64,000 nt of DNA from the NCBI GenBank assembly GCA_026196105.1, contig JAPHRK010000006.1, positions 1-64,000 of the forward strand, in the 5' to 3' direction. This stretch comes from Rhodospirillales bacterium (GTDB lineage: Bacteria; Pseudomonadota; Alphaproteobacteria; Rhodospirillales; JAPHRK01). The notes beneath the pieces are model-generated. The model was not told where the DNA came from, did no database searches, and saw only the letters and a list, made by a program, of their open reading frames with translations. Of the stretch, positions 57,773 to 59,416 are shown one piece after another (within the stretch, counting starts at the first letter, position 1; the number at the start of each line of letters is the position of its first letter). The translations under genes and the position numbers were made by a program.

Positions 57773-58525
57773 CTAAATAGTGAATTCAGCCTTTTGTTTT
57801 GCTACGGCTTCAGGAAGTGATCCCTCTAAAGGGGTTCCCCACTGGTCTTTATAAAGCAGCTCTTCTAAAGGAAGGCGTTGCCGCCACCCCGCAGATTCTA
57901 GCTCTGGTTTGTCATAAAAATGGCTAACATACCCAACACAAAGATAAGCAACAGGAAAAATATTATCTGGTAGTTTAAGGGCCTCTTTGAGGCTTTCTTG
58001 CTCAATAATACTCACCCAGCCAACACCAAGGCCTTCAGCCCGAGCTGCCAACCAGAGGTTCTGCACGGCGCAAACTGAACTGAACAGGTCCATCTCCGGG
58101 ATATGGGTACGCCCGATAACCACAGGTCCGGCGCGCTCCCGGTCACAGGTGACACAAATATTGATCGGAGATTCTAAAATCCCTTCCAATTTTAGTTTGC
58201 TATAGACCTCGCCTTTTTCAGGGCCAAACATTTCAGCAGCTTCTTGATGGGCTTGGGTAAAGCCAGCGTGAACCTTCTTTTTCACATCCTGGTCTTGCAC
58301 CATAACAAAGTTCCAGGGCTGCATAAAGCCGACAGACGGCGCATGGTGAGCTGCGAGCAGAACGCGGGCCATAACCTCATCAGGGACAGATTGAGGCAGA
58401 AACTGACCCCGAACATCCCGGCGGCTGAAAATGGTTTTATAAAGCCCGTCTCTGAGCCCATCTGTGAAGTATTGGTCGTCTTGAATTGCCTGCCCATTAC
58501 GGACAGCTTTTTGACTGTTTTCCAT
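57773..58525 (-). CDS. bluB: 5,6-dimethylbenzimidazole synthase BluB
   Basis: A 250-residue flavin-destructase of the nitroreductase fold. Landmarks: FSRRDVRGQFLPQSVPDEVMARVLLAAHHAPSVGFMQPWNFV (FMN region), CDRERAGPVVIGRTHIPEMDLFSSVCAVQNLWLAARAEGLGVGWVSI and YLCVGYV. BluB cleaves reduced FMN with oxygen to make the lower ligand of vitamin B12. The ATG at 58525 follows an AAGGGG site. A cobalamin riboswitch lies about 60 bases upstream, so expression falls when B12 is plentiful. No other cobalamin genes are adjacent. Confidence 0.95.
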   Translation of the reverse strand: MENSQKAVRNGQAIQDDQYFTDGLRDGLYKTIFSRRDVRGQFLPQSVPDEVMARVLLAAHHAPSVGFMQPWNFVMVQDQDVKKKVHAGFTQAHQEAAEMFGPEKGEVYSKLKLEGILESPINICVTCDRERAGPVVIGRTHIPEMDLFSSVCAVQNLWLAARAEGLGVGWVSIIEQESLKEALKLPDNIFPVAYLCVGYVSHFYDKPELESAGWRQRLPLEELLYKDQWGTPLEGSLPEAVAKQKAEFTI

Positions 58526-58587
58526 GTGATTCCCCTTAAATAGAAAACGTTTAAGTGAGCTCCTGCCGTTCCAGGGCAAAACTCAAG

Positions 58588-58785
58588 GGGCAATCAGGCC
58601 GGTCTTCTGACTTGGGGTTTAAACTCTTCCACCTCGCCTTCCCGATCTAATGATCAGTGGCATATGAGATGAAAAATCCTCCCTTACAGCGTTGGGCACG
58701 TGCCGGATTTTCACCAGCTTCCCGATTCTCTCACCTCCTATGAGGCGAACACCTGTTGCCAAGGCCGAATGTGCCTTTTTAAGCA
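58588..58785 (-). ncRNA. Cobalamin riboswitch controlling bluB
   Basis: On the minus strand the region carries the B12-riboswitch landmarks in order: GGTGTTCGCCTC and GGAGGTGAGA near the 5' side, GGGAAGCTGGTGAAAATCCGGC, then GGGAAGGCGAGG, and finally AAGTCAGAAGACCGGCC, the B12-box relative (positions 58598-58614). The bluB start lies 63 bases further on. The exact element ends are estimated. It binds adenosylcobalamin and shuts off translation or transcription. Confidence 0.9.
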
Positions 58786-59055: not shown

Positions 59056-59095
59056 TTGACATAAATAAAATACCATACTAATTTAGTAAGGTATT
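59056..59095 (+). promoter_or_regulatory. Promoter with embedded 27-bp palindrome
   Basis: TTGACA at 59056-59061 and TAATTT at 59079-59084 are 17 bases apart, a good sigma-70-type promoter. The -10 lies inside a 27-bp near-perfect palindrome (59069-59095; arms AATACCATACTAA and TTAGTAAGGTATT, one mismatch), the classic arrangement of a repressor operator. It serves the 55-aa gene starting at 59116. Confidence 0.7.
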
Positions 59096-59115
59096 AGATA
59101 ATAATGGAGGCCACA

Positions 59116-59283
59116 ATGAAGCAATCTATCGATTATAAAATGGACAGCCACGGGCGCATCCTTGTCGTATGTGCAGACGGCATTGAACGGCACGCTACCC
59201 AAGAAGAATCGCTTCTAATGGACTATGTGATGCCTGGTATGTCAGCAGGCAGCCAATCAATCAGTCACCCAGATTGTCGCTAA
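59116..59283 (+). CDS. Unrecognised 55-aa protein with its own promoter and terminator
   Basis: A small frame from ATG 59116, preceded by a GGAGG site seven bases upstream. The product begins MKQSIDYKMDSHGRILVVCA and continues DGIERHATQEESLLMDYVMP, ending with a Ser/Gly-rich tail and DCR. It is acidic/neutral, soluble, with two cysteines, and fits no family I know. The gene is flanked by a strong promoter with palindromic operator and by a perfect terminator, so it is a compact, independently controlled unit. Codon use is ordinary, which supports it being a real gene. Confidence 0.72.
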   Translation: MKQSIDYKMDSHGRILVVCADGIERHATQEESLLMDYVMPGMSAGSQSISHPDCR

Positions 59284-59285
59284 AT

Positions 59286-59322
59286 GGTAAAAAGTGGGGT
59301 TTCCCTCACCCCACTTTTTACC
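59286..59322 (+). terminator. Terminator of the 55-aa gene
   Basis: A perfect 14-bp stem, GGTAAAAAGTGGGG and CCCCACTTTTTACC, with a 9-base loop, starting two bases after the stop. The TTTTT in the right arm serves as the T-run. Confidence 0.88.
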
Positions 59323-59416
59323 AAAGTAATTTAGTCAACTACTAGCTGTTGGGGTACGGTTTTTGGGCACTCCCCAAATAACTAAAATACGGAGTTATGC
59401 CCTGAAATGGTATGTT

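Follow-up and report, generated by a model that had tools for sequence, protein, structure and literature searches.

A small-protein gene of Rhodospirillales bacteria with a predicted IscR type-1 operator over its promoter

The Fe-S accessory protein IscX is small and is subject to Fe-S-linked control. In E. coli, according to the account in PMC3899308, [2Fe-2S]-IscR represses the isc operon from type-1 sites, and the operon is derepressed by oxidative stress and by iron limitation. The same account is one of four papers in which the E. coli IscR type-1 consensus, ATASYYGACTRWWWYAGTCRRSTAT, appears in print, and for P. aeruginosa it describes type-1 sites that overlap the iscR promoter (PMC3899308). 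Among the Alphaproteobacteria, Rhodobacter sphaeroides IscR is described in PMC4618611 as repressing iron-related genes from promoter palindromes, the Iron-Rhodo-box. Here we analyze a small gene in a window of 64,000 nucleotides (the whole stretch of DNA studied) from a Rhodospirillales bacterium, where a palindrome that looks like an IscR type-1 operator lies over the -10 element of a lone 55-codon frame.

The first-pass annotation of this locus had set out a TTGACA-17-TAATTT promoter, a 27-bp palindrome over the -10, a GGAGG site and a 55-aa frame, and direct reading of the sequence confirmed this layout (Table 1). The two promoter hexamers are separated by a 17-bp spacer and have 9 of 12 consensus matches in the hexamer table. 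A generic sigma-70 scan did not include the promoter of the small gene among those it listed in the window, because TAATTT agrees with TATAAT at only three of six positions; a paralogue in the same genome carries TATAAT at the operator place where the window has TAATTT. Within the palindrome, 12 of the 13 pairs match around a central T. An alternative in-frame ATG at 59104 would give a protein of 59 aa, but the GGAGG then falls within the frame. The terminator had been described as a perfect 14-bp structure; its stem is indeed perfect but extends over 16 bp (59285-59300 pairing with 59308-59323), and none of 200 shuffled sequences was as stable (-25.4 kcal/mol, z -7.6). On the right-hand side, a PAS-GGDEF gene converges on this terminator. 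To the left, a cobalamin riboswitch aptamer is directly followed by a nitroreductase-family gene that is BluB-like by eye.

Table 1. Positions of the features at the small-gene locus and of related features elsewhere (window positions unless a locus or contig is named).
Feature	Position	Strand	Remarks
-35 hexamer TTGACA	59056-59061	+	read from sequence; among the first bases common to the window and paralogue units
-10 hexamer TAATTT	59079-59084	+	inside the operator core, at operator position 9
27-bp palindrome	59069-59095	no strand	over the -10; inner 25 bp at 59070-59094
GGAGG ribosome site	59106-59110	+	5 nt before the ATG; kept in the paralogue
55-aa small protein ORF	59116-59283	+	ATG 59116, TAA 59281-59283; 55 codons
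Intrinsic terminator	59285-59323	no strand	16-bp stem with A tract and T tract; between the small gene and the convergent PAS-GGDEF gene
Cobalamin riboswitch aptamer	58580-58771	minus	109.6 bits; left of the small gene
Nitroreductase-family gene	57773-58579		directly after the riboswitch
Paralogue ORF	L020:5356-5517		window genome
Near type-1 site, 3 mismatches	G000:C56:12687-12711 (L056:1501-1525)		between nnrS-like and fumarylacetoacetate-hydrolase-like genes

A short single-gene transcript is predicted from this arrangement, and together with the very stable terminator and the lack of conserved neighbours it could also be read as a regulatory or dual-function RNA in which the frame is secondary. 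We regard this as very improbable, since synonymous differences exceeded non-synonymous differences per site in all 12 pairs compared, homology of the protein reaches across families, the paralogue has kept the ribosome site, and Rfam gave no match at the small gene. Judged by these comparisons, the 55-codon frame is a true gene under protein-level selection. In an alignment of 21 sequences (A3), two residues, Y7 and E31, are invariant, and three more, R25, A27 and P40, are nearly so. The same 21 sequences contain no conserved cysteine column, and because no cysteine is conserved, the small protein is unlikely to carry an Fe-S cluster of its own.

Models of the window protein and of its L029 homologue (mean pLDDT 70 and 84, respectively) both predicted three strands followed by two helices, and a Foldseek search of PDB and BFVD with the two models returned no match at E <= 0.001. 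An apparent kinship with chemokines (Z up to 4.1, 41 aligned, rmsd 1.9) was rejected as reflecting a common strand-meander-plus-helix arrangement. Searched by sequence, PDB yielded best E values of 0.33 with the window protein and 0.087 with the profile, and Pfam, NCBIfam, PHROGs and PADLOC gave no informative match. Among 26 members, none matched Pfam-A over the cut-off, none produced an IscX row against Pfam-A and NCBIfam at E <= 0.1, and none matched PADLOC, which covers mainly anti-phage systems. DSPc, RecT and flgK (E 0.02 to 0.11) were each matched by one or two members, below the cut-off where one exists, and were discarded. In searches of the literature on IscR combined with small proteins or sORFs, Rhodospirillales, alpha-proteobacteria, Magnetospirillum, Terasakiella and Azospirillum, we recognised no paper on this small-protein family. 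Thus, the family is uncatalogued in the libraries searched (Pfam, NCBIfam, PHROGs, PADLOC and PDB), and the original description of the protein as of unknown family holds as far as libraries are concerned, though homologues exist.

One of these homologues is the paralogue in the window genome, which is 58% identical over 45 residues (E 5.7e-12) and follows a recurrence of the palindrome. In a local alignment the two copies match over a stretch that starts at CTTGAC and takes in the first 92 coding bases, so that the conserved unit consists of promoter, operator, ribosome site and protein. The paralogue is flanked by a secretion-adaptor-like gene (L020:3772-5211) and a potassium-channel-like gene (L020:5636-6793), both named by eye, with no iron genes near. 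The homologue search proposed in the first-pass annotation returned this paralogue and, across the order, homologues in at least 22 of 317 genomes, with the frame conserved as a protein. A first profile had matched 24 of the 297 genomes searched in the order; in G065 and G157 the matches were weak ones in long frames, and both were left out before the analyses of 27 members. A better profile reported at least 23 of 317 genomes, of which at least 22 were accepted after G077 was set aside, as was G233:C152, both of these matches lying in long frames. A survey of 385 genomes of the class gave, besides the window genome, at least one dubious match, in G608, where only profile positions 12-38 were matched within a 171-aa frame, and a survey of 398 genomes of the phylum gave no homologue besides the window genome among the candidates scored. 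In these surveys the family is nearly absent outside the order. The family protein of G044 is 100% identical to the one encoded in a Magnetospira MAG, which is assigned to Rhodospirillales. No relative of the small protein was found by tblastn against phages or by a scan of viral contigs with the L-type alignment, and tblastn against plasmids gave a single match, at E 0.8.

With up to three mismatches, the palindrome occurs at one other place in the 3.9-Mb window genome (82 contigs), the promoter of the paralogue, while the backwards control occurs nowhere; the window palindrome is above chance. Of its inner 25 bp, 22 agree with the E. coli type-1 consensus, and at the paralogue site 23 of 25 do. 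Five places in the genome lie within three mismatches of the type-1 consensus and none lies within three mismatches of the backwards pattern; the paralogue site is the best of the five, and the other four, the window site among them, have three mismatches each. The ACT/AGT core of the window site is not flanked by the G and C of the consensus. Of the three remaining places (names by eye), one adjoins a tRNA-like stretch, one is intergenic, and one falls in the gap between an nnrS-like and a fumarylacetoacetate-hydrolase-like gene.

The window genome also encodes a regulator to which such a site would be suited. It has one IscR with the Cys3His motif (three Cys and one His where they are expected), which matches E. 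coli IscR structures with an E value of 8e-39 and largely shares their helix-turn-helix. The curated TIGR02010 cut-off was passed by none of the IscR proteins. This iscR lies on contig C57 in an isc operon with the order cysE-iscR-nifS-like-iscS-iscU-iscA-hscB-hscA (names by eye, iscR and iscU also by family models), and ahead of cysE stands AAACTTGACCAATTTGGTCGGATAT, which agrees with the type-1 consensus at 21 of 25 positions. Among iscR loci from family-bearing genomes, 16 of 20 have a site of at least 18/25. G121 and G198 had weak Rrf2 matches only. IscU was found over the cut-off in 13 of 22 family-bearing genomes, compared with 134 of all 317, raw counts that show no clear association; its absence from G087 means little because that genome is only 67% complete.

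Across the family, a type-1 site of at least 19/25 was found within 150 bp of the start in 18 of 27 members, which are not independent and represent 11 of the 16 family-holding genera. For each of these 18, no control window from the same locus reached the observed score. Furthermore, the -10 falls inside the operator core in 14 of the 18, at position 9 in 13 of them and at position 8 in one. The G121 member carries a 22/25 operator, though the Rrf2 match of that genome is weak. A matrix built only from 16 isc-operon sites, one per locus and symmetrised, placed 18 of 27 family upstream regions beyond the 99th percentile of 1256 control windows, and 10 of these scored higher than any control, whereas 20 column-permuted matrices placed between 0 and 5 of the 27 above the threshold. 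The nine members without a good site within 150 bp are L041, L042 and L049 (one divergent group, family f19), the G008 tandem pair, the second gene of the G044 tandem pair, and L035, L037 and L043; when the search was widened to 500 bp, L043 alone among them reached 18/25.

A different regulator with a similar palindrome, for instance another Rrf2 protein, might produce the same pattern, the likeness to IscR sites then being a family resemblance. Binding sites of Rrf2 proteins do look alike, PMC4618611 describes a similarity between the Iron-Rhodo-box and the RirA box, and the window genome encodes two further Rrf2 proteins. Neither of these has the three-cysteine motif, however, one of them adjoins cysK, and a matrix derived from isc-operon sites alone finds the operators of the family; we therefore consider a different regulator improbable. 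The gene next to cysK appears, by eye, to stand in a context of cysteine metabolism.

Neighbourhoods differ between family-bearing genomes, and no conserved neighbour genes were found. Two genomes carry tandem family pairs, L044 with L050 (G008:C211:8055-8643) and L029 with L051 (G044:C47:1438-1959); in G044 only one of the two copies carries the operator, and in G008 neither does. L041 and L042, of the divergent group with no operator, lie near ribosomal-protein genes that resemble L20 and L35 by eye. In G003, two overlapping opposite-strand frames beside the family gene (L021:9082-9752) look by eye like a HigB/HigA-type toxin-antitoxin pair, and a neighbour of this kind is absent at most other members. 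The small size of the protein and a palindrome over the -10 had suggested, as an argument from layout, a toxin-antitoxin-like element or a small DNA-binding protein that uses the palindrome to repress its own promoter. However, no partner frame can be seen, the neighbours are not conserved, PADLOC matched 0 of 26 members, and the isc operon carries an operator of the same kind, so that we find a self-regulating element of either kind barely credible. The idea that regulation is self-contained likewise finds no support, as the operator suits a regulator that acts in trans and is encoded at another place in the genome.

Together, these data make it probable that the small gene belongs to the IscR regulon as a transcription unit by itself, encoding an IscR-repressed small protein that would be made when Fe-S clusters are short. 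IscR regulation of the small gene is strongly supported by sequence, from which we infer IscR binding, derepression and expression at this gene. When Fe-S clusters are sufficient, [2Fe-2S]-IscR would occupy the type-1 palindrome and cover the -10, blocking transcription; a shortage of iron or of Fe-S clusters, or loss of the IscR cluster to oxidants, would end repression; and the derepressed gene would give a short mRNA that ends at the strong terminator and codes for the 55-aa protein. The original suggestion of a tightly repressed stress peptide fits this scheme, with a type-1-like operator over the -10 and repression predicted while Fe-S clusters are abundant. The action of the protein is more speculative: its small size and the lack of conserved neighbours and conserved cysteines would favour an adaptor that works in trans during Fe-S or iron stress. 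Tentatively, and with more doubt than confidence, we suggest that in Rhodospirillales-like bacteria the family is dedicated to Fe-S shortage and extends the IscR response to the post-translational level. Its members would be produced solely after IscR has lost its cluster and might bind and retune a partner, such as an iron-using enzyme, the cysteine desulfurase or an assembly scaffold, so that Fe-S supply is adjusted faster than transcription alone allows.

Annotation easily overlooks small proteins, and assigning a regulator offers an inexpensive approach to what they do. For this family the analysis supplies a candidate regulator, a list of genomes and a condition, shortage of iron or Fe-S clusters, under which induction is predicted. 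If the assignment is true, an uncharacterised protein family would join the IscR response in the part of the Alphaproteobacteria with E. coli-like type-1 sites at isc promoters.

Like IscX, the product is a small protein under predicted Fe-S-linked control, a possible functional analogy only; unlike IscX, it is encoded by a lone gene outside the isc operon, and the 26 members scanned gave no IscX match at E <= 0.1. As at the isc promoters of E. coli and Pseudomonas aeruginosa, a 25-bp type-1 palindrome, here a predicted site, overlaps the RNA polymerase site, but the putative site would control a lone small gene instead of Fe-S assembly genes. The locus shares with the Iron-Rhodo-box regulon of R. 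sphaeroides, as described in PMC4618611, the combination of an alphaproteobacterial IscR and a palindrome at the promoter. The two differ in that the Iron-Rhodo-box is a 19-bp motif whereas the site here follows the E. coli type-1 pattern, and in that IscR of Rhodobacteraceae has a single cysteine whereas IscR of the window genome has three.
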